This document shows positions 1 through 6,772 of a DNA stretch of 6,772 nucleotides, in pieces. The notes under the pieces are model-generated. The model saw nothing but the letters and a program-made list of their open reading frames with translations. It did not search any database and was not told where the DNA came from. Both the position numbers and the translations under genes were made by a program. This DNA is from an uncultured Clostridium sp. (GTDB lineage: Bacteria; Bacillota; Clostridia; Oscillospirales; Acutalibacteraceae), in NCBI GenBank assembly GCA_900547915.1, contig URIN01000078.1, positions 1-6,772 on the forward strand, read 5' to 3'. The first letter of the stretch is position 1. Each line of letters begins with the position of its first letter.

Positions 1-27
1 GCAGCGTCAGATGTGTATAAGAGACAG
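1..27 (+). other. Nextera (Tn5) sequencing adapter remnant, not genomic
   Basis: The first 27 bases match the 3' part of the Nextera read-1 adapter. Positions 9-27 are the 19-base Tn5 mosaic end AGATGTGTATAAGAGACAG, preceded by GCAGCGTC from the adapter tail. Genomic sequence therefore begins at position 28. This is library-preparation carry-over at a contig end and not a natural transposon end. The match is exact over its whole length, so confidence is very high. Confidence 0.97.
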
Positions 28-218
28 GTGTTACGCTTTCTGACCTTACTAAGGACGGGGGCGAGCAGATAAGCCTTTTCGGCGCTGAAAAGGGAGCGGA
101 CAGCGAAAAACTCAAAAAAGTTGACGCCGCTGTTGATGCTATCAGAAACAAATTCGGCGATTCAAAAATACTGCTCGGTTCAACAATGAACACAAAAAGA
201 CCAAAGAAAAAGAATTAA
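28..218 (+). CDS. dinB: DNA polymerase IV (Y-family), C-terminal fragment
   Basis: This open frame is cut at its 5' end by the contig boundary. The first complete codon is at 30 and the stop is TAA at 216-218, leaving 62 residues. The fragment begins VTLSDLTK, then has EQISLFG, then the helix DAAVDAIRNKFGDSKIL, and ends in a basic tail (KRPKKKN). This order is typical of the end of the little-finger domain of DinB/UmuC-type translesion polymerases: an xQxSLF segment resembling the beta-clamp binding motif, then D-x-IR-x-KFG. By family knowledge the whole enzyme copies past DNA lesions without proofreading. The catalytic palm is outside the window, so activity cannot be judged. A strong terminator follows 8 bases after the stop, making this the last gene of its unit. 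UmuC-like relatives share the tail, so the subfamily is less certain than the family. Confidence 0.8.
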
Positions 219-226
219 AAAATAAA

Positions 227-252
227 GCGCACGGTTTTCCGTGCGCCTTTTA
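227..252. terminator. Bidirectional intrinsic terminator
   Basis: A perfect 8-bp stem (GCGCACGG at 227-234, CCGTGCGC at 239-246) closes a TTTT loop. On the plus strand it is followed by CTTTT, ending the polymerase gene. On the minus strand the same stem is followed by TTTATTTTTTAATT, so it can also end transcription of the convergent wall-protein gene whose stop is at 309. Confidence 0.9.
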
Positions 253-308
253 ATTTACTGCTTTTTGAATTTATGTTGAAAATTTTGCCTGCGGCAACTT
301 AGTTTTTA

Positions 309-1349
309 TTATGCCTTTTTCTTTTTAGCCGCAGCCGCAAATGCCATCAGGGCAACTGCCGCAGCGCCTATTGCAGGTGCAATCTCAACTCCCGTTGCAG
401 GTGATTTTTTGCTTGTGTCGCTGTTTTTGTTGTCAGCGGCTGTTGTTGTCTGTGCCTGTGTTGTGGTTTCGGGCGCTGTTGTGCTCTCCTGCTCATCTTC
501 CTGCGCAATCGGCATATAGAAGCTCAGTGCAAACACAGCGTCTGCCGTAGCGTAGTATTCGTCATAATCCGCCTTGAAACCGCCCGTCTTTTCATCATAG
601 AAATTCTTAATCAGAATATCATAAACGGCGTCAGCCTTTTCGGTGTTGCCTGCAATTGAGTATGCAGCAAGCGCAAGTGCTGTTGAATCGGCGTTTGCGC
701 CGTAGTTTGAATAGCCGTTTTCAGTATAATAAGTTTCAAGCAGTTTGTAAGCGTCCTCCGTGTATTCATCATATGCGCCCGCTGTTTTCATTGCAAGGAT
801 AAACATTGCAAGATCGTCTGGTGATGTGCCGTAGCCGCTCCAGAAATCAGTACCCGTGCCGACTGTATAATATTTTGCAAGCGCATCGCTGAGAGCCTTA
901 ACTGTATCGTCAAGTCCGAGTGCTTTTGCCGCCTCTATGGCGTAAAAATAGTTGTATGGTGTTGAAACCGGGCTTGCGTCAGCATTTTTGAGCGCATCTT
1001 TAAGATTAACACCGTTTGCGTTTTCAGGGTCAATTCCCGCCGCTTTCGCAATGCAGACTGCCATACCGATTGTGCCGGGGTCTGTAAGCTTTGATTCGCT
1101 TGCCGCCTGTGCAACGGATTTGAAATAAGCGTCTGTGTATGCGCTTATGTCTGCTCCTGAACGGGCAAGAATGTAAAGATTTTTGGATGACGAAACGTCA
1201 TATCCGTTTTTGCTGTAATTGCCGTCAAAGGCAAATGCCACAGCGGTGTCTGTTTTTTGTTTCACATCGCTTTTTGTTGCGCCGAATGCCGTTACGGATG
1301 TGCAGATAACAAGCATTACACATAATAGCGCTGCCGTAATTTTTTTCAT
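309..1349 (-). CDS. Sortase-anchored alpha-toroid protein, probable corrinoid-binding surface protein
   Basis: The product has 346 residues. Residues 1-24 are a signal peptide (MKK, hydrophobic core, AFGA). Residues ~25-282 form an all-helical repeat region with the look of prenyltransferase/squalene-cyclase-type alpha toroids: motifs GYGTSPDDLAMFILAMKTAG (172-191), GYSNYGANADSTALALAAYS (212-231) and GGFKADYDEYYATADAVFAL (256-275) recur at toroid spacing. A Glu/Thr/Gln-rich linker follows (283-315), then a sorting signal: SPATG (316-320), a hydrophobic stretch and a KKKKA tail. Family knowledge says such proteins are exported and joined to peptidoglycan by a sortase; SPATG is a variant of LPXTG. 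A cobalamin riboswitch precedes the gene, and the same fold forms the alpha domain of intrinsic factor and transcobalamin. I therefore infer corrinoid capture at the cell surface. The start is ATG 1347-1349, with GGTGAGG 7 bases upstream. Binding itself is not shown by the sequence. Confidence 0.85.
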   Translation of the reverse strand: MKKITAALLCVMLVICTSVTAFGATKSDVKQKTDTAVAFAFDGNYSKNGYDVSSSKNLYILARSGADISAYTDAYFKSVAQAASESKLTDPGTIGMAVCIAKAAGIDPENANGVNLKDALKNADASPVSTPYNYFYAIEAAKALGLDDTVKALSDALAKYYTVGTGTDFWSGYGTSPDDLAMFILAMKTAGAYDEYTEDAYKLLETYYTENGYSNYGANADSTALALAAYSIAGNTEKADAVYDILIKNFYDEKTGGFKADYDEYYATADAVFALSFYMPIAQEDEQESTTAPETTTQAQTTTAADNKNSDTSKKSPATGVEIAPAIGAAAVALMAFAAAAKKKKA

Positions 1350-1383
1350 ACTATAACCTCACCGTCATATTTTTTACGCCTCA

Positions 1384-1547
1384 AACGGATATCCCGGCTC
1401 GCACATTGCCTACTCTCCGCCTTCCCCTCAAGCGGTGTTACCCCCGTCTGAGAGTGGCATCTGGATTTCGTATTGCTTACGGTAGAGTGAGCTGCCGCGG
1501 CTTTTCACCGCGTTCCCCGTGGAAAAGACGGCTCTTTCCCTCGGCGC
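1384..1547 (-). ncRNA. Cobalamin riboswitch
   Basis: Read on the minus strand, the leader has the conserved blocks of cobalamin riboswitches in the right order. GGGGAACGCGGTGAAAAGCC comes first, with a GC-rich arm and GGCAGC. Then come CCGTAAG, the ATGCCACT block (1453-1460), GGGGAAGGCGG with GAGTAGG (1409-1427), and a B12-box-like end GAGCCGGGATATCCG (1386-1400). The predicted transcript starts near 1547, right at the aptamer's 5' edge. Between the B12 box and the start codon there is no hairpin with a U-run. Control is therefore more likely by hiding the ribosome binding site (GGTGAGG, 1357-1363) than by termination; this is inference. Exact ends and P1 pairing are approximate. By family knowledge, high cobalamin would turn the downstream wall-protein gene off. 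Confidence 0.9.
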
Positions 1548-1553
1548 AAAAAG

Positions 1554-1582
1554 ATTATAACCTGTAAATACCATATTGTCAA
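1554..1582 (-). promoter_or_regulatory. Consensus promoter of the riboswitch and wall-protein gene
   Basis: On the minus strand there is a perfect -35 TTGACA (1582-1577), a 17-base spacer and a perfect -10 TATAAT (1559-1554). The expected start is a G near 1547, just before the riboswitch. Both boxes match the sigma-A consensus at all six positions, implying strong basal transcription gated by the riboswitch. Confidence 0.88.
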
Positions 1583-1604
1583 ACGCTTATTGTTCTGCTA
1601 AAAT
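1576..1604 (+). promoter_or_regulatory. Promoter of the DUF4430 gene, overlapping the divergent -35
   Basis: On the plus strand there is TTGTCA (1576-1581), a 17-base spacer and TAAAAT (1599-1604), each box one mismatch from consensus. The -35 box shares five base pairs with the minus-strand -35 (1577-1582), so two polymerases could hardly occupy both at once. The expected start, about 7 bases after the -10, falls at 1611, exactly on an ATG. Confidence 0.65.
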
Positions 1605-1610
1605 ATGCCT

Positions 1611-2306
1611 ATGAAAAAGAAACAACTTATTATAATTTTGTCGGCTATCCTTGCCGTGCTCATTGTTGTTTTCACCGTGCTTGCCGTAAACGGCAGTGCA
1701 AGAAAAGCACAGCAGAATACCACCGTCAGCACAAGTGCTTCCACGCAGGCTCAGCAGTCAGCTTCTCAAACCGAAACGCAGGCAAGCAAACCCCAAACGC
1801 AGGAAACGACTGCCGCCGCCGAAAGCAAAATCGATAAAAAAGATAATAAAAAAGACAATACAACCCAAAAACAGCAGTCTGCGGTATCAGAAAAAACAAC
1901 GCAGGCTGAGCGTGAGACCGAAAAGCAGAGCGTAACGGTAACTATTGAAGTCACCTGCAAGAACGCCCTTGCCTATGAGAGTACCACCCAAAATGGAGAA
2001 GAACTCAATTTAAACCTGCCGAAAAGCGGATATATAATTGAGACCGAAAGCCTTACACTTGAAAAAGGCGCCACTGTTTTTGACGCTCTCAGCAGTGTCT
2101 GCTCGTCAAACGGCGTTTCTCTGAAATATCAGAGTAAAGCGTACATTCAGGCTATCGGTGGACTTGCAGAAAAAGACTGCGGCGGCTCAAGCGGCTGGAT
2201 GTACCGCGTAAACGGTGAAAGTCCTATGAAAGCCGCGTCAAAATACACGCTTTCGGACGGGGACAGAATAGAGTGGTACTATGTTACCAACTCGTCAGAC
2301 AGATAA
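1611..2306 (+). CDS. Membrane-anchored DUF4430 (transcobalamin C-terminal-like) protein
   Basis: From ATG 1611 the product has 231 residues. It has a short basic N-terminus (MKKK) and a hydrophobic helix (~5-27) without a lipobox cysteine, so it is either an uncleaved anchor or a signal peptide. A long Gln/Thr/Ser/Lys-rich, low-complexity linker follows (~28-106). The C-terminal DUF4430 domain (~107-226) shows TLEKGATVFDAL, a YIQAIGGL strand, GSSGWMYRVNG and LSDGDRIEWYY, the signature blocks of that family. DUF4430 is the fold of the beta domain of intrinsic factor/transcobalamin, which closes over bound cobalamin. It diverges from the riboswitch-controlled toroid protein, so I infer a corrinoid-binding partner. 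An ATG at 1605 would add Met-Pro, but it abuts the -10 box and would lie before the predicted transcript start. Neither ATG has a ribosome binding site. The domain call is firm; the ligand is inferred. Confidence 0.85.
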   Translation: MKKKQLIIILSAILAVLIVVFTVLAVNGSARKAQQNTTVSTSASTQAQQSASQTETQASKPQTQETTAAAESKIDKKDNKKDNTTQKQQSAVSEKTTQAERETEKQSVTVTIEVTCKNALAYESTTQNGEELNLNLPKSGYIIETESLTLEKGATVFDALSSVCSSNGVSLKYQSKAYIQAIGGLAEKDCGGSSGWMYRVNGESPMKAASKYTLSDGDRIEWYYVTNSSDR

Positions 2307-2323
2307 ATATAGCAAAAAAATAA

Positions 2324-2354
2324 CCGCAGGCACTGCCTGCGGCTTTTTGTTTTT
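2324..2354. terminator. Bidirectional intrinsic terminator
   Basis: CCGCAGGC (2324-2331) pairs perfectly with GCCTGCGG (2335-2342) around an ACT loop. It is followed by CTTTTTGTTTTT on the plus strand and by TTATTTTTTT on the minus strand. It ends the DUF4430 gene and the convergent phosphatase gene. Confidence 0.92.
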
Positions 2355-2382
2355 AGTTTTATAAATGCAGAGATTTTGTCTG

Positions 2383-3213
2383 CTAACTTGTATAATTTTT
2401 TTCGCTTTCAAATTTTTCAAGCAGAAAACGTGCCACTCCGTCCTCACCGTTTGAGCCTATAACGGCGGTTGCCATATCTTTTAACTGCTTAACGGCGTTT
2501 GAAACGGCATAACATTCGTCCGCCTCTGCAAAAAGGTCAATATCGTTTTCGCTGTCACCGAAAACAACAAGTTTATCGCACCCGAGCGCCTTTTTCAGTT
2601 TCAGAGCGGCGTTTGCTTTTGTTGCCCCCTTCGGCATTATTTCAAGCCACTGCCTGCCCGTGTAAATATCACGCTGATAAAGACATCTGTATTTTTCTTT
2701 AAACTTTTCATAGAGCGGGTGCAGCTTTTCAGCGCTGTCTATGCAGGTGAAATAAAATATATCACCACGCCAAAGTTCGCTCTCGTTTTGGGCAGGTGTT
2801 TTTCTGCTGTCTCCGTTTCTGGTGGCAACAAATTCCGCTGCCCCTTCGGAAAGAGTTTCAGGCAAATATGTAAATCGCTCTTTTTTGCCGTCATATGAAT
2901 ACACTATTGGACTTATTCCCGCACCAAGCAAAGCGGGCAGGATTTCTTTTTCTTCTCCGCTGAAAAATGAGGACAGCAGTATTTTTCCGCTTTTGTAATC
3001 CGCTGTGAAAACACCGTTGTAAGCTATCATCGGCAGGCGGCAGTCAATGCCTTTTGTAACTTTCAGCGCTGTGTTTCTTGACCTTGCAGTGGCAAATGAA
3101 AACAGCATTCCGCTTTTTACAAGGCTGTTTATCGTGTTTGCGGTAAAGGGCGATATTCTGCATTCGGGTGTCAGCAGAGTGCCGTCAAGGTCTGAAACAT
3201 AAAGCGTTTTCAT
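2383..3213 (-). CDS. Cof-type HAD-superfamily sugar-phosphate phosphatase
   Basis: The product has 276 residues, the usual length for the Cof/YidA-like HAD subfamily (IIB cap). The four HAD motifs are present. Motif I is DLDGT, with nucleophile D8 and acid/base D10. Motif II is FATARS, with T42. Motif III is K199 in PKGATK. Motif IV is GDSENDIDLF, with D220, N223 and D224 for magnesium. The cap lies between motifs II and III (~80-190). By family knowledge it is a cytoplasmic magnesium-dependent phosphatase acting on small phosphorylated metabolites; substrates vary and cannot be read from sequence. The start is ATG 3211-3213, with AGGAAG seven bases upstream and a strong promoter at 3267-3295. 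It appears to be a single-gene unit ending at the terminator shared with the DUF4430 gene. Confidence 0.92.
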   Translation of the reverse strand: MKTLYVSDLDGTLLTPECRISPFTANTINSLVKSGMLFSFATARSRNTALKVTKGIDCRLPMIAYNGVFTADYKSGKILLSSFFSGEEKEILPALLGAGISPIVYSYDGKKERFTYLPETLSEGAAEFVATRNGDSRKTPAQNESELWRGDIFYFTCIDSAEKLHPLYEKFKEKYRCLYQRDIYTGRQWLEIMPKGATKANAALKLKKALGCDKLVVFGDSENDIDLFAEADECYAVSNAVKQLKDMATAVIGSNGEDGVARFLLEKFESEKNYTS

Positions 3214-3266
3214 ATTGCACTTCCTTTAATAAAAACAGGCGTAATCAGCCGCCATTCTTTATCTGA

Positions 3267-3295
3267 ATATTAGCGTGCTCTATAAAATTTGTCAA
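3267..3295 (-). promoter_or_regulatory. Promoter of the HAD phosphatase gene
   Basis: On the minus strand there is TTGACA (3295-3290), a 17-base spacer and TAATAT (3272-3267). The expected start is near 3260, giving a leader of about 45 bases with AGGAAG before the ATG. Confidence 0.82.
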
Positions 3296-3336
3296 CATTT
3301 TATCCTTGGACTGTAATTTTTAATCCGTTATTATAT

Positions 3337-3356
3337 TACACTTTTAAAAAAGTGTA
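3337..3356. repeat. Palindrome in AT-rich intergenic region, possible operator
   Basis: TACACTTT (3337-3344) and AAAGTGTA (3349-3356) form a perfect 8-bp inverted repeat with a 4-base centre. The half-site AAAGTGTA occurs once more at 3416-3423, just after the proposed -10 of the miniprotein promoter. No GC-rich stem is present, so a terminator role is unlikely. An operator for an unknown regulator is possible but unproven. The rest of 3214-3517 shows only the two promoters and a weak 5-bp hairpin at 3476-3490. Confidence 0.4.
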
Positions 3357-3385
3357 TGATTATTTTTATATTTTACCGCTTTTTG

Positions 3386-3414
3386 TTGACTTTTTGGAAT
3401 TTTAGTGTTTTTAT
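3386..3414 (+). promoter_or_regulatory. Possible promoter of the tandem miniprotein genes
   Basis: TTGACT (3386-3391), a 17-base spacer and TTTTAT (3409-3414). The -35 is good; the -10 matches only four of six positions. The expected start near 3421 falls within the AAAGTGTA half-site and gives a leader of about 97 bases. The extreme AT content makes chance matches likely, so this is tentative. Confidence 0.35.
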
Positions 3415-3517
3415 TAAAGTGTAAGCAGGTGAATTTTGCTTGCTTATGCCATCGATTAAAATTCCTTGTTTCAGCAGGGCGCAGTGCCCTAAAAGTAAAA
3501 AGAGCGGAGATGTTATT

Positions 3518-3742
3518 ATGAAAGAAAAAACCGTTCGCATAATTCTGTATACTGCTTGGATAGTGATAACCGTGGCTGTTTTGATTACTTTGCTTTGCCT
3601 TGGTGAGGACAGAGTGAACGCAAGTGAACCGCTCAGACAGCTTGACCGTTTCTTCCCCTGGATTTCCTGCGTGGTGCTGCTGGTGATATCCCTTATCTCC
3701 GGCAAGCTTTATAAAAAAGAACACGGCGGCAAAGCAGAATGA
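3518..3742 (+). CDS. Two-helix membrane miniprotein A, unknown function
   Basis: This protein has 74 residues and two predicted membrane helices (~7-28 and ~46-61). A short polar loop containing GEDRVNASEPLRQLDR lies between them, and the C-terminus is basic (GKLYKKEHGGK). The ATG at 3518 is chosen because GGAG sits 8 bases upstream. The frame stays open back to 3440, but that extension is polar and has no ribosome site. It is clearly related to the next gene: after a one-residue shift they share GE in the loop, LR, FP at the start of helix 2, and a G-[KR]-[LI]-Y-K ending. I do not recognise the family. Small paired membrane proteins can be toxins, holin-like, transporter accessories or immunity proteins; nothing here selects among these. 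Confidence 0.7.
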   Translation: MKEKTVRIILYTAWIVITVAVLITLLCLGEDRVNASEPLRQLDRFFPWISCVVLLVISLISGKLYKKEHGGKAE

Positions 3743-3775
3743 TAATATTTATTCATCTGAAATGAAGGTGATTTG

Positions 3776-3994
3776 ATGAAAAAAAGAACTGCAAGTATTT
3801 TGGTGCGCTGCATTGCAGTTGCGGCGATAATTATTTTTGAGTTAGTTATATATTTTGTTTTCGGCGAAGAGTCGGTAATGCAAAGAGGCGTGCTCAGAAC
3901 ACTGTGGATACTTTTCCCTTGTATTGTTGTGTTGTTTACAATAGCGGCAGATCTCATAATCGGCAGAATATATAAGAATAAACCCCAGAAGTAA
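3776..3994 (+). CDS. Two-helix membrane miniprotein B, paralogue of A
   Basis: This protein has 72 residues. ATG 3776-3778 is preceded by AAGGTG five bases upstream; a TTG at 3773 would only add one residue and leave poor spacing. It has two hydrophobic helices (~8-29 and ~46-62), the loop GEESVMQRGVLR and a basic tail (GRIYKNKPQK). It aligns with miniprotein A along its whole length with a one-residue offset, so the pair probably arose by tandem duplication. The gap to gene A is 33 bases with no terminator, so the two are probably co-transcribed. A bidirectional terminator lies 17 bases downstream. Function is unknown. It could form a hetero-oligomer with A in the membrane, but that is only inference. 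Confidence 0.7.
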   Translation: MKKRTASILVRCIAVAAIIIFELVIYFVFGEESVMQRGVLRTLWILFPCIVVLFTIAADLIIGRIYKNKPQK

Positions 3995-4011
3995 AAAGAA
4001 TATATAAAATA

Positions 4012-4043
4012 AAAAATCCGAGTGCATATGCATTCGGATTTTT
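4012..4043. terminator. Bidirectional intrinsic terminator between miniprotein B and tRNA-Ala
   Basis: AATCCGA (4015-4021) pairs with TCGGATT (4034-4040). The centre is the palindrome TGCATATGCA (4023-4032), flanked by one non-Watson-Crick position. Runs of A on the left and T on the right let it act on both strands: it ends the miniprotein pair on plus and the tRNA gene on minus. Confidence 0.85.
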
Positions 4044-4119
4044 TGGTGGAGCATAGGGGATTCGAACCCCTGACCTCCACACTGCCAGTGTGGCGCGCTC
4101 CCAACTGCGCTAATGCCCC
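4044..4119 (-). tRNA. tRNA-Ala (anticodon GGC)
   Basis: A 76-base cloverleaf with encoded CCA, on the minus strand. The acceptor is GGGGCAT/ATGCTCC with one G-U pair; the D-arm is GCGC/GCGC. The anticodon stem CCACA/TGTGG holds loop CTGGCAG, with anticodon GGC at 4086-4084. The T-arm AGGGG-TTCGAAT-CCCCT is followed by ACCA. It reads GCC (and GCU) alanine codons. Confidence 0.97.
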
Positions 4120-4137
4120 TTAACGAATTGTGTAATA

Positions 4138-4166
4138 ATTCTACTATATTTCAGACTGAAAATCAA
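4138..4166 (-). promoter_or_regulatory. Likely promoter of tRNA-Ala
   Basis: On the minus strand there is TTGATT (4166-4161), a 17-base spacer and TAGAAT (4143-4138). The predicted start is near 4131, about 12 bases before the mature tRNA. It lies just beyond the acetyltransferase stop at 4170. No terminator separates the two genes, so read-through from the his unit could also reach the tRNA. Confidence 0.6.
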
Positions 4167-4169
4167 TAT

Positions 4170-4706
4170 CTAATTATCATTTTTTGATGCGTCGGTTTGC
4201 CTTTGCAAACGGTAAACAATGTGAGGCATATCAATGCCGTAATAGTGTTTCGTTATACTGCCGCAGATCTTCATTCCGTTTCTTTCCGCAACCTTTCTTG
4301 ACGGCAGGTTATTATCTCTGATTATGGAATAAATCTCTGCCATACCAAGCACGTCAAATGCGTATCTGTTGCACGCCTGTGCCGCCTCTGTGGCGTAGCC
4401 GCTGTGCCAGAATTTTTTTTGAAAAAGATAGCCTGTTTCGGGCACACGCTCAGTGCCTAAATTCTGATAAGTTATTCCGCACTGACCTATCATTTCTCCG
4501 CTCTCTTTAAGCACCGCTGCCCACAGCCCGAATCCGTCTTCTTTGTATCGCCTTTGCTGATTTTCAAACCAATTAATAACCTCTTCATCAGAAAATGCGT
4601 GTTCATAGGCGTACATAACTTCTTCGTCCTGCAGGATTTTTCTGAGGGCAGGCAGGTCATTTTCAGTCATCTCTCGCAGAACAAGCCGCTTTGTTTCAAT
4701 TCTCAT
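4170..4706 (-). CDS. GNAT-family N-acetyltransferase, RimJ/RimL-like
   Basis: The product has 178 residues, normal for the Acetyltransf_3/RimJ-RimL group. It starts MRIETKRLVLREMTENDLPAL, the typical opening strand and helix. GLWAAVLKESGEMIGQCG (60-77) is the central hairpin. GYLFQKKFWHSGYATEAAQA (92-111) is motif A, where the backbone binds the acetyl-CoA pyrophosphate. DNNLPSRKVAERNGM (131-145) is the closing motif. By family knowledge it transfers acetyl from acetyl-CoA to an amine, often a protein N-terminus or an antibiotic; the substrate cannot be read here. The start is ATG 4704-4706, with a modest GGTGA four bases upstream. It begins 24 bases after the hisF stop and is probably co-transcribed with it, but no role in histidine synthesis is implied. 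Confidence 0.9.
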   Translation of the reverse strand: MRIETKRLVLREMTENDLPALRKILQDEEVMYAYEHAFSDEEVINWFENQQRRYKEDGFGLWAAVLKESGEMIGQCGITYQNLGTERVPETGYLFQKKFWHSGYATEAAQACNRYAFDVLGMAEIYSIIRDNNLPSRKVAERNGMKICGSITKHYYGIDMPHIVYRLQRQTDASKNDN

Positions 4707-4730
4707 TGCATCACCATATTGTGGCTAGGG

Positions 4731-5489
4731 TTACATCCTAACCGAAACGCCGTTTTCACGAAGATATTTTTTCAGTTCTGGAATGGGCAGTTCGTTAAAA
4801 TGGAAAAGACTTGCCGCAAGCACTGCGTCAGCCGCGCCTTTTGTGAAAGCATCGTAAAAATGCTCCTTTTTGCCTGCTCCGCCGGATGCTATAACCGGTA
4901 TGCCCACAGCTGTTGAAACGGCGTGGGTCAGCTCAATGTCATAGCCGTTTTTCTGTCCGTCACAGTCCATAGATGTCAGCAGAATTTCACCTGCTCCGCG
5001 CTTATACGCTTCTTTTGCCCACTCAACAGCGTCAATTCCGGTCGGTATTCTGCCGCCGTTGAGGTAAACTTCCCAGCCTCCATTTTCACGGCGCTTTGCG
5101 TCAATGGCGCACACAACGCACTGGCTGCCGAATTTTTCAGCCGCTTCATTTATCAGGTCAGGATTGCGCACTGCCGCAGAGTTTACGGAAATTTTGTCAG
5201 CTCCTGCTCTGAGCAGTTCCTTAAAATCGTCAGTGGTTCTTATTCCGCCGCCAACGGTGAACGGAATAAATACGGTCTTTGCAACTCTTTCAACTATATC
5301 CATCATAGTGCCTCGGCCCTCGTGCGTGGCGGTGATGTCAAGCAGCACAAGCTCGTCCGCACCCGCTCGGTCATAAGCCGCAGCGCACTCAACGGGGTCG
5401 CCTGCGTCTCTTAAATCAACAAATGAAACGCCTTTTACAACTCTGCCGTTTTTTACATCCAGGCAGGGGATTATTCTTTTTGCATACAT
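4731..5489 (-). CDS. hisF: Imidazole glycerol phosphate synthase, cyclase subunit HisF
   Basis: The product has 252 residues, full length for this beta/alpha barrel. It takes ammonia from HisH and converts PRFAR to imidazole glycerol phosphate and AICAR, joining histidine synthesis to purine recycling. [16 protein letters not shown] carries catalytic D11, and CAIDAKR carries D130. Phosphate-binding loops are at FTVGGGIR (77-84), SVNSAA (101-106), [13 protein letters not shown] (172-184), IASGGAG (200-206) and AASLFH (225-230). ATG 5487-5489 is three bases past the hisH stop, and its ribosome site GGAGGAA is the end of the hisH coding sequence, so translation is probably coupled. No key residue is missing. 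Confidence 0.98.
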
Positions 5490-5492
5490 ATC

Positions 5493-6104
5493 TTATTCCT
5501 CCGCCGCAATGAAATTCTTTAGTACCTGTAATCCTGCACTGCCGCTTTTTTCTGGGTGAAACTGTGTTGCAAACATGTTACCGCGTTCAATTGCACATTC
5601 GATTTTAACACCGTATTCTGTGGTCGCCGCAACATCGCTTTCGTCTGCGCCGTTTAGGTAATAGGAATGAACAAAATAAAAGTAAGAGCCGTTTTCAATT
5701 CCACTGAAAAGACGGCTGTTTTCACGTATCTCAATGCTGTTCCAGCCTATGTGCGGCACTTTAAGTCCGTTGTTGCTGGGTATAAGAGAGATATTACCGT
5801 TAAGAAGCCCAAGCCCGCTTGAGTTTGGGCTTTCGTCACTCTCTGCAAACAAAAGCTGGAGTCCAAGGCATATTCCCAAAAACGGCTTGCCGCTTAAAGC
5901 CGCTTTTTTTACTGCACCGTCAAGTCCTCTTGAGCGCATGGAAGCCATCGCGTCACCGAATGCGCCTACTCCGGGCAGAATAACGCTGTCCGCTTTTTCT
6001 ATTTCGGCGGGATCTGATGTAACAATGCTTTTTGCGCCGATATAATCCAGCGCTTTTTTTACGCTCATCAGGTTGCCTGCACCGTAATCTATAATTGCCG
6101 TCAT
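5493..6104 (-). CDS. hisH: Imidazole glycerol phosphate synthase, glutamine amidotransferase subunit HisH
   Basis: The product has 203 residues, the usual length. It hydrolyses glutamine and passes ammonia through the HisF barrel. A class I amidotransferase triad is visible: C79 in FLGICLGLQ, and H183 and E185 in QFHPEKSG. PGVGAFG (44-50) forms the oxyanion-hole region. The frame is open to an ATG at 6134, but I choose ATG 6102-6104. It gives the canonical MTAIIDYGAGN start and has AAGGAGC seven bases upstream, whereas the upstream ATG directly abuts the -10 box, ahead of the predicted transcript start. It is the first gene of the minus-strand unit hisH-hisF-acetyltransferase. hisA, often between these two genes, is absent here. 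Confidence 0.97.
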   Translation of the reverse strand: MTAIIDYGAGNLMSVKKALDYIGAKSIVTSDPAEIEKADSVILPGVGAFGDAMASMRSRGLDGAVKKAALSGKPFLGICLGLQLLFAESDESPNSSGLGLLNGNISLIPSNNGLKVPHIGWNSIEIRENSRLFSGIENGSYFYFVHSYYLNGADESDVAATTEYGVKIECAIERGNMFATQFHPEKSGSAGLQVLKNFIAAEE

Positions 6105-6125
6105 CTTGCCGCTCCTTAATTTATA

Positions 6126-6153
6126 ATTATACATAATTTTATCATAACGCCAA
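6126..6153 (-). promoter_or_regulatory. Probable promoter of hisH-hisF
   Basis: On the minus strand there is a perfect -10 TATAAT (6131-6126), with TTGGCG 16 bases upstream (6153-6148) as a four-of-six -35. The predicted start is near 6119, giving a very short leader that is mostly the ribosome site. An alternative (TTGCAA-17-TAAAAT) lies slightly upstream. No attenuator or T-box is seen in this leader. Confidence 0.6.
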
Positions 6154-6171
6154 CTTCATTGCAATATTTCA

Positions 6172-6200
6172 TTGACAAATGCGGTTGTTTGAGATACAAT
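6172..6200 (+). promoter_or_regulatory. Strong promoter of the structured RNA and tRNA-Ser
   Basis: TTGACA (6172-6177), a 17-base spacer and TACAAT (6195-6200), only one mismatch in twelve. The expected start is a G at 6206-6207. It diverges from the hisH promoter. Confidence 0.85.
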
Positions 6201-6205
6201 TCAAT

Positions 6206-6451
6206 GGTAAACTCAAGGTCTAGTCAGACCTGCGTAAGGCAGTCTGCCAAGCAGAAATGAGATTTTTTATTAGCGAGTAAGCCAACAGAAACCGTAATCG
6301 ATTTGCTTGAAAGCCTTGCAAAAAGCGGAACCGCCTTTCCTCAAAATTTGCTCAACCGTACAGATTTGAGGTACTGCTCCAAGCGGAAGATCTTTCGCTT
6401 CTAATTAAAATTTAATAGCTCAAAAACTTAAAAAATGAGTTTTGAATATAC
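6206..6451 (+). ncRNA. Unidentified structured RNA leading into tRNA-Ser
   Basis: About 245 bases follow a near-consensus promoter and contain no credible gene: the longest ATG frame near the start is 18 codons without a ribosome site. Several pairings are visible. CAGAC-C-TGC/GCAGTCTG forms a hairpin near 6225-6246, competing with GGTCT/AGACC and TCTGC/GCAGA. CCTCAAA/TTTGAGG encloses ~6340-6370. AAGCGGAA/TTTCGCTT (6381-6400) closes a GATC loop. Long-range AAACTCA (6209-6215)/TGAGTTT (6436-6442), and an AU-rich match of 6259-6273 with 6401-6421, could close the whole as a rod. A rod with a 3'-side hairpin recalls 6S RNA, but I see no sequence signature that proves it. There is no strong terminator before the tRNA, so co-transcription and processing are likely. 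Confidence 0.5.
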
Positions 6452-6540
6452 GGAGACGTATCGAAGTGGTCATAACGGGGCTGACTCGAAATCAGTTAGG
6501 GAGCAATCCCCCGCGAGTTCGAATCTCGCCGTCTCCGCCA
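6452..6540 (+). tRNA. tRNA-Ser (anticodon CGA)
   Basis: An 89-base class II tRNA with encoded CCA. The acceptor is GGAGACG/CGTCTCC with G73. The anticodon stem GCTGA/TCAGT holds loop CTCGAAA, with anticodon CGA at 6487-6489. A long variable arm (GGGAGCAATCCCC) is present, as required for serine. The T-arm is GCGAG-TTCGAAT-CTCGC. It reads UCG codons. Confidence 0.96.
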
Positions 6541-6613
6541 TAAAAAAGCAGGTGCACTTTTGTGCACCTGTTTTTTATATAATGCGAGATACGAAAAGGG
6601 CAATGCGAAGCAT
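6520..6613 (+). repeat. 94-bp direct repeat, copy 1
   Basis: This segment covers the last 21 bases of tRNA-Ser, its terminator and the start of a hairpin element. It is repeated exactly 159 bases downstream at 6679-6772. The flanking base before each copy differs (T versus G), so the left border of the repeat is sharp; the right border of copy 2 is the window end and so unknown. Confidence 0.97.
6549..6576 (+). terminator. Intrinsic terminator after tRNA-Ser
   Basis: CAGGTGCAC (6549-6557) and GTGCACCTG (6562-6570) form a perfect 9-bp stem with a TTTT loop, followed by six T. An A-run before the stem also gives a minus-strand terminator. It ends the RNA/tRNA-Ser transcript. Confidence 0.94.
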
Positions 6614-6688
6614 AGAAACAGTCCGGGGGACTGTTTCGGTGCCCGGGTGCGTGCCGCCGAACGCAGAAGTGAGGCGGGCGAATCTCGC
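6584..6688. repeat. Nested-hairpin element between the tRNA-Ser repeat copies
   Basis: Several inverted repeats sit inside one another. GCGAGAT (6584-6590) can pair with ATCTCGC (6682-6688). GGGCA (6598-6602) pairs with TGCCC (6640-6644), enclosing ATGC-GAA-GCAT (6603-6613) and a perfect 10-bp hairpin GAAACAGTCC-GGG-GGACTGTTTC (6615-6637). CCGCC (6654-6658) pairs with GGCGG (6673-6677). It is GC-richer than its surroundings and carries no gene. This resembles small dispersed palindromic repeats of Firmicute genomes, but I cannot name a family. Confidence 0.6.
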
Positions 6689-6699
6689 CGTCTCCGCCA
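6679..6699 (+). pseudogene. tRNA-Ser 3'-end remnant
   Basis: These 21 bases exactly copy the end of the intact tRNA-Ser(CGA): the 3' side of the T-arm, the acceptor strand, G73 and CCA. The bases before are the GGCGGG of the hairpin element, not a tRNA body, so no functional tRNA can form. Confidence 0.85.
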
Positions 6700-6707
6700 T
6701 AAAAAAG

Positions 6708-6735
6708 CAGGTGCACTTTTGTGCACCTGTTTTTT
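6708..6735 (+). terminator. Second copy of the tRNA-Ser terminator
   Basis: The same 9-bp stem, TTTT loop and six-T tail as at 6549-6576, carried along in the direct repeat. No gene in between needs it. Confidence 0.85.
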
Positions 6736-6772
6736 ATATAATGCGAGATACGAAAAGGGCAATGCGAAGCAT

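Follow-up and report, generated by a model that had tools for sequence, protein, structure and literature searches.

We describe a 6,772-nucleotide stretch of DNA from an uncultured Clostridium sp. of the Acutalibacteraceae (contig URIN01000078.1, positions 1 to 6,772 of the forward strand; hereafter the window), in which two divergent genes encode surface proteins and a cobalamin riboswitch precedes one of them. The first gene (309..1349, minus strand) encodes an exported, wall-sorted alpha/alpha-toroid protein of 346 residues, as judged from the open reading frame, an AlphaFold2 model and structure comparison. The second (1605..2306, plus strand) encodes a protein of 233 residues with a Pfam DUF4430 domain (E 1.5e-21), the start of which is possibly the second ATG at 1611. 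The animal proteins intrinsic factor, haptocorrin and transcobalamin have a toroid and a beta domain in one chain, with cobalamin held between them. A preliminary description of the locus proposed that the two halves are carried here as separate surface proteins, an interpretation that is partly supported by the analysis below.

The toroid protein carries an export signal at its N-terminus, judged by eye. The AlphaFold2 model, built from 43 sequences, has a mean predicted local distance difference test score (pLDDT) of 84.6 and is a confident helical ring; together with column counts in the 43 sequences it places the toroid domain at residues about 25-288 (486..1277, minus strand), with the ring itself spanning about residues 25 to 285. 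C-terminal of the ring is a disordered Thr-rich stretch and then a cell-wall sorting signal (312..407, minus strand) consisting of SPATG, a hydrophobic stretch and KKKK, the arrangement of xPxTG, hydrophobic stretch and basic tail that is characteristic of sortase-anchored proteins. SPxTG is kept in 41 of the 43 aligned homologues, and 15 of the 43 match Gram_pos_anchor at E <= 0.1. The column counts also pick out three conserved loops, FWxG[YW]GTSxDD, GYxNYGANADSTALALA and TGGFxxDYDxYYATADA, each of which is N-terminal to a helix. No Pfam domain was found above cut-off in the toroid protein; NCBIfam likewise had no entry that matched it over cut-off, nor one that matched the DUF4430 protein among the best 25 of 70. 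None of the 43 window-type toroid chains contains a DUF4430 match at E <= 0.1.

The DUF4430 protein starts with a membrane anchor helix (residues 6-27; 1620..1685, plus strand), seen in the model and in a tether scan, which is followed by a flexible linker of about 75 residues, rich in Ser, Thr, Gln and Lys, where the pLDDT is below 50 (residues 29-101; 1689..1907, plus strand). The remainder (1917..2294, plus strand) is modelled confidently and, on the basis of Pfam and structure comparison, is a transcobalamin-type beta-grasp domain with a beta-hairpin. In the model, helix 158-168 is followed by hairpin strands at 173-177 and 180-184, and a beta-grasp with a hairpin C-terminal of the helix is the hallmark of the transcobalamin-like clade of the SLBB superfamily. 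Haptocorrin, intrinsic factor and transcobalamin entries account for all of the top 14 VIA rows for the domain; as modelled, it has the fold of the beta domain of these carriers. The preliminary description was therefore borne out in its account of an exported, wall-sorted toroid protein and of a DUF4430 protein anchored to the membrane through a long flexible linker.

The aptamer of the cobalamin riboswitch (RF00174; 61.6 bits against a gathering score of 31.5, E 8.6e-14) lies at 1367..1557 on the minus strand, ending 17 bases before the toroid ATG. A P13/L13 hairpin, UAUGAC-GGUGAG-GUUAUA (1352..1369, minus strand; fold -4.2 kcal/mol, z -3.38), holds the ribosome-binding site, and the aptamer loop L5, CUCAC (1487..1491, minus strand), is complementary to the GUGAG of L13. 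An L13 loop with a complementary CUCAC is presumably the L5-L13 kissing-loop design. Judging from these complementary loops, with cobalamin bound the kiss would be predicted to mask the ribosome-binding site, making a translational OFF switch. A hairpin with the ribosome-binding site in a GGUGAG loop ahead of the toroid start codon is found in the window and in 10 relatives (11 loci). Across the 10 distinct sequences, pairing holds in 90% of the P13 stem cells, with a covariation score of 0.378, and none of 500 shuffles attains either value. With a slide of +3 the score becomes 0.337, and all of the P13 covariation measures can be raised by the relatedness of the sequences. Among the 11 loci with a riboswitch in which the DUF4430 gene comes first, CCAUU is present at the L5 region of the aptamer in all 11 and an exact AAUGG is found near or past the aptamer end in five. 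Hairpins followed by T runs were seen by eye ahead of the start in several of the DUF4430-first loci, with one (L014) recovered by a scan, which suggests transcriptional control there.

A promoter-like site for the toroid gene, TTGACA-17-TATAAT (1554..1582, minus strand), agrees with the consensus at 12 of 12 positions, as does TTGACA-17/18-TATAAT in all 11 divergent loci, the window included. The promoter-like site of the DUF4430 gene, TTGTCA-17-TAAAAT (1576..1604, plus strand; 10 of 12 matches), overlaps the toroid -35, such that the two sites share a -35 region. At 1576-1611 of the window the -10 of the DUF4430 gene (TAAAAT) abuts the ATG, and it lies a few bases before the ATG in several divergent relatives; this position, with no ribosome-binding site seen, suggests leaderless translation of the DUF4430 gene.

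To see whether the pair is kept in relatives, one genome per species was scanned with the toroid alignment alone as bait. Twenty-nine loci were recovered, every one with a Clostridia-type name; for L027 the toroid was identified by tblastn and not by the profile scan. Four loci (L004, L012, L020 and L025) were left out of the count because their toroid lies close to or at the end of a contig, or has a broken or cut frame. In all of the 25 testable loci a DUF4430 gene adjoins the toroid gene, and in 24 an RF00174 riboswitch is upstream of the pair. The genes are divergent in 10 of these loci, in the order DUF4430 then toroid in 12, and toroid then DUF4430 in three. Trees of both proteins, of 29 rows each with L036, L084 and L085 added, each require at least two changes among the three gene orders, so the adjacency has outlived rearrangement. 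The DUF4430 proteins of the DUF4430-first loci have a lipobox-like motif (12 of 12) and those of the divergent loci a membrane helix, the sole lipobox-like match among the latter (L009) falling inside the helix. That the membrane tether is achieved by two means is an argument that retention of the beta domain at the membrane is important.

The riboswitches of these genomes are found mostly at the pair. There are 30 cobalamin riboswitches in 27 of the 29 genomes, 24 of them at the pair and two at a DUF4430 gene with the toroid on another contig (G004 and G020), making 26 at the pair or its DUF4430 half. Two precede large DUF4430 surface proteins (L032 and L034) and two precede surface proteins with sorting-like C-termini but no DUF4430 (L030 and L031). 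The proteins of L030 (8201-9895, minus strand) and L031 (2320-4563, plus strand), from G013 and G018, are large surface proteins related to each other; neither contains DUF4430 or a confirmed toroid, and they are possibly another B12-regulated capture protein. Those of L032 (2566-6243, plus strand) and L034 (5550-9650, minus strand) are surface proteins of 1225 and 1366 residues with one DUF4430 and aBig_2 each; the riboswitch of L032 is the second one in G023 and that of L034 the only one found in G021. No confirmed toroid was found for these two DUF4430 surface proteins under riboswitches, nor for that of L083. In G004 the riboswitch has its 5' half on one contig and its 3' end, with the toroid, on another, and a repeated element with 98% identical copies (L035 9764-9887 and L004 1-124) is apparently inside it. 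In five of the divergent loci (L001, L002, L006, L008 and L009) a flavin mononucleotide riboswitch is located about 5-8 kb away from the toroid gene, which may be kept synteny only. For contrast, 100 genomes from the family of G001 were sampled: 11 of them matched the toroid profile and 61 had the riboswitch, 57 of these over cut-off. Nine of the 30 riboswitch places fetched from this sample have a DUF4430 or A1-type toroid match within about 1.5 kb; outside the bait set, therefore, the riboswitch often leads other genes. Searches of plasmids gave only distant DUF4430 proteins (nine records; one record), and a Latilactobacillus plasmid has the run LPXTG protein, DUF4430, T, A and S, the LPXTG protein being without a Pfam toroid.

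The related genomes also give an indication of what the pair may serve. A B12-binding domain is found over cut-off in all 29, in 27 of them within an open frame of 769-822 residues. We read these frames as MetH because of their length and because a 776-residue protein at L084 contains S-methyl_trans, Pterin_bind and both B12 domains. MetE (PF01717) is present in two of the 29 genomes and CobS in none. BtuCDF was rejected as the usual importer, since FecCD is over cut-off in only five of the 29 (nine at E <= 0.001). Instead, T, A and S components of an energy-coupling factor (ECF) system are linked to the pair at L028, L036 and L084. At L028 a single operon runs from the riboswitch through toroid, DUF4430, CbiQ/EcfT and a double ATP-binding cassette (ABC) ATPase to an ECF S component. 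The order at L036 is toroid, DUF4430, T, A, S; at L084 it is MetH, a DUF4430-toroid fusion, a tethered DUF4430, T and an ABC-ABC-S fusion; and at L085 toroid, DUF4430, a T-like frame and a double ABC run up to the contig end. No riboswitch match was found in L036, L084 or L085. The window-type toroids are homologous to those of the ECF operons (hhalign 97.3%, E 1.7e-11). L086 was considered as a second fusion and rejected: its N-terminal domain has an hhalign value of 12.7% to DUF4430 and no Pfam DUF4430, and because it is unconvincing only L084 is claimed.

A profile of the S component (four rows, two of them from G028 and G029, both among the matching genomes) matches at exactly one place in 24 of the 29 genomes, with E <= 2.5e-54. 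Eight of these 24 places were fetched: seven carry the T, A and S genes as a group, and a contig end cuts off the eighth. CobA/BtuR is found in 11 genomes, seven of which have it on the same strand as S and 2.3-2.6 kb upstream. The most likely importer is a corrinoid ECF system, usually unlinked from the pair, and its S component would take the corrinoid from the pair.

The conserved pair, the riboswitch and the ECF context support a B12-repressed surface capture module that feeds an ECF corrinoid importer. Our favoured reading, to which we would give a probability of about 0.6, is that the wall toroid and the membrane-tethered DUF4430 protein close on a corrinoid together and pass it to the ECF importer, with the toroid likely to be repressed by cobalamin. 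The wall and membrane tethers are evident from the sequences of the two proteins; the toroid would bind the corrinoid and the two chains would meet around one ligand. When B12 is scarce the ribosome-binding site would be free, allowing the toroid to be synthesised and attached to the wall. The flexibly tethered beta-grasp domain could then reach out, cap the corrinoid in the mouth of the toroid and carry it back to the importer in the membrane. With enough B12 in the cell, the ribosome-binding site would be covered by the L5-L13 kissing loop. The more specific picture of an intrinsic factor in two pieces, in which a Clostridia wall toroid and a membrane-tethered beta-grasp lid form a two-chain clamp that closes and pulls back to the ECF importer, we regard as evenly balanced.

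A number of observations weigh against the favoured reading. In the window the riboswitch leads the toroid gene only, the pair being divergent; the preliminary description, which had the genes back to back under the riboswitch, was right about the riboswitch before the toroid but not about the second gene. The pair of L021 has no riboswitch. Two of five covariation measures of the P13 hairpin are not above shuffles, namely pairs changed on both sides (two, reached by 460 of 500 shuffles) and further pair types (five, reached by 119 of 500). The importer and the need for B12 were read from the 29 relatives and not from the window's own genome, and as these are largely metagenome bins, possibly incomplete, absences are weaker than presences. 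The S-component profile has no match in five of the 29; the T component of L084 matches CbiQ at 18.4 bits, below cut-off, and the T-like frame of L085 has no Pfam match. By sequence the DUF4430 profile reaches the transcobalamin beta domain at E 1.4 only. For the toroid a sequence link to transcobalamin was sought by profile and not found: against the PDB the toroid profiles matched squalene-hopene cyclases (8pak, E 2.2e-8) and not transcobalamin. The best structural matches of the toroid model are GH105/lyase and cyclase toroids, with transcobalamin at rank 17 in Foldseek (E 0.010); transcobalamin is absent among the 50 VIA rows listed for the toroid, an absence that does not exclude it. As modelled, then, the fold match of the toroid is generic, and the fold alone is no pointer to transcobalamin. 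The comparison of predicted structures with transcobalamin, proposed in the preliminary description, thus supported the beta domain and gave a generic match for the toroid.

These matches could mean that the toroid acts as a surface enzyme or glycan binder under B12 control, GH105/lyase or cyclase-like, that frees or collects bound corrinoid, leaving DUF4430 as the sole binder. DxDD, the class II terpene cyclase motif, is absent from the window protein and present anywhere in only three of the 43 family members, and a terpene cyclase was rejected on this ground. As the toroid protein is also exported and wall-sorted, and the same gene pair continues into ECF operons, we think an enzyme or glycan binder distinctly improbable. 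A relay, in which toroid and DUF4430 each bind the corrinoid alone and the ligand hops between them to the ECF S component with no sandwich, would accommodate the DUF4430 proteins that have no toroid match in the chain or nearby (L032, L034 and L038; L037 is on a 3-kb contig), as well as the toroid chain of L084, which contains a DUF4430 domain in addition to the separate membrane-tethered one. It sits less easily with the 43 window-type toroid chains, which have no beta domain of their own, and with an adjacency of the two genes that has persisted through at least two rearrangements of their order, and seems unlikely to us.

It is also conceivable, at long odds, that the ligand of the pair is something else, such as cobalt, haem or an incomplete corrinoid. 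Pfam names the T component CbiQ, 'cobalt transport protein'; EcfT proteins share the CbiQ family. The gate, however, is a cobalamin riboswitch. Without CobS in any of the 29 genomes cobalt could hardly become B12, and MetH (L084) and CobA/BtuR (seven genomes) lie within the ECF clusters. In favour of another ligand, a reviewer of an earlier study cautioned against B12 as the sole ligand, in the portion of that record available (PMC1796856).

That study, by Burroughs et al. (2007), named the SLBB superfamily and, in the parts of its text available, found secreted bacterial toroid-SLBB fusions, noted CbiO/CbiQ operons and that B12 synthesis is usually missing, and proposed B12 scavenging and a transfer to animals (PMC1796856). 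The system described here resembles these scavengers in its secreted or wall-anchored Gram-positive proteins and its CbiO/CbiQ operons, as far as those parts go, but they are toroid-SLBB fusions and paralogous SLBB pairs, whereas here an SLBB-free toroid chain is accompanied by a lone tethered SLBB chain (PMC1796856). The main text of PMC1796856 does not contain the term 'riboswitch', and no description of a split toroid/SLBB pair was found in the titles, abstract openings and passages of the open-licence PMC literature that were covered. The split pair is a variant of known, mostly predicted, toroid/beta-grasp scavengers. Of the checks proposed in the preliminary description, the searches for conserved adjacency with the riboswitch and for a fused version, that of L084, had positive outcomes; its author knew of no described system with this arrangement, which stands for the split pair within the literature covered, fused scavengers having been predicted in 2007.

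The animal carriers are one soluble chain, while here there are two chains, one wall-sorted and one membrane-anchored, and the toroid is no closer to that of intrinsic factor or transcobalamin than to other toroids. As toroid and beta domain are on separate genes and not in one chain, the pair falls outside the intrinsic factor family, though it probably works like a member. Among importers, ECF-CbrT of Lactobacillus delbrueckii is likewise an ECF system in a B12 auxotroph without BtuCDF, with no surface capture protein described in the portion of the paper available (PMC5997447). The surface lipoproteins BtuG and BtuH of Bacteroides also capture B12 at the cell surface ahead of a transporter; according to the available parts of these reports, they are single-chain binders of the Gram-negative outer membrane, and BtuG is a beta-propeller (PMC6143338, PMC8941943). 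The RF00174 riboswitch here leads a cell-wall protein, and close relatives use the ribosome-binding-site hairpin.

The rest of the window contains genes for a HAD hydrolase, a GNAT protein and HisF/HisH-like proteins, tRNAs and two short membrane open reading frames, for none of which do we know of a role in B12 biology. The first bases (9-27) end in AGATGTGTATAAGAGACAG, the Nextera transposase adapter, so that the contig begins with library adapter and not with genome. An exact 94-base direct repeat (6520-6613 and 6679-6772, spaced 159) covers the 3' end of a tRNA and its downstream hairpin, and may be an assembly artefact since the contig ends with the second copy. A 260-base non-coding stretch between a HisH-like gene and a tRNA (6190-6450) has no Rfam match above gathering score.

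Within the literature searched, little is known of how corrinoids are captured at the surface of B12-using Gram-positive bacteria that lack BtuCDF. With the pair, its riboswitch and an ECF importer present once per genome, such capture becomes testable with few purified proteins. If true, the two-piece clamp would give Gram-positive bacteria an equivalent of BtuG, and would be an extant split relative of the bacterial stock proposed as the source of the animal B12 carriers. A real clamp would mean that the architecture of those carriers can work as two separately tethered chains, and would provide a lead both to how intrinsic factor arose and to the competition for B12 among Clostridia.

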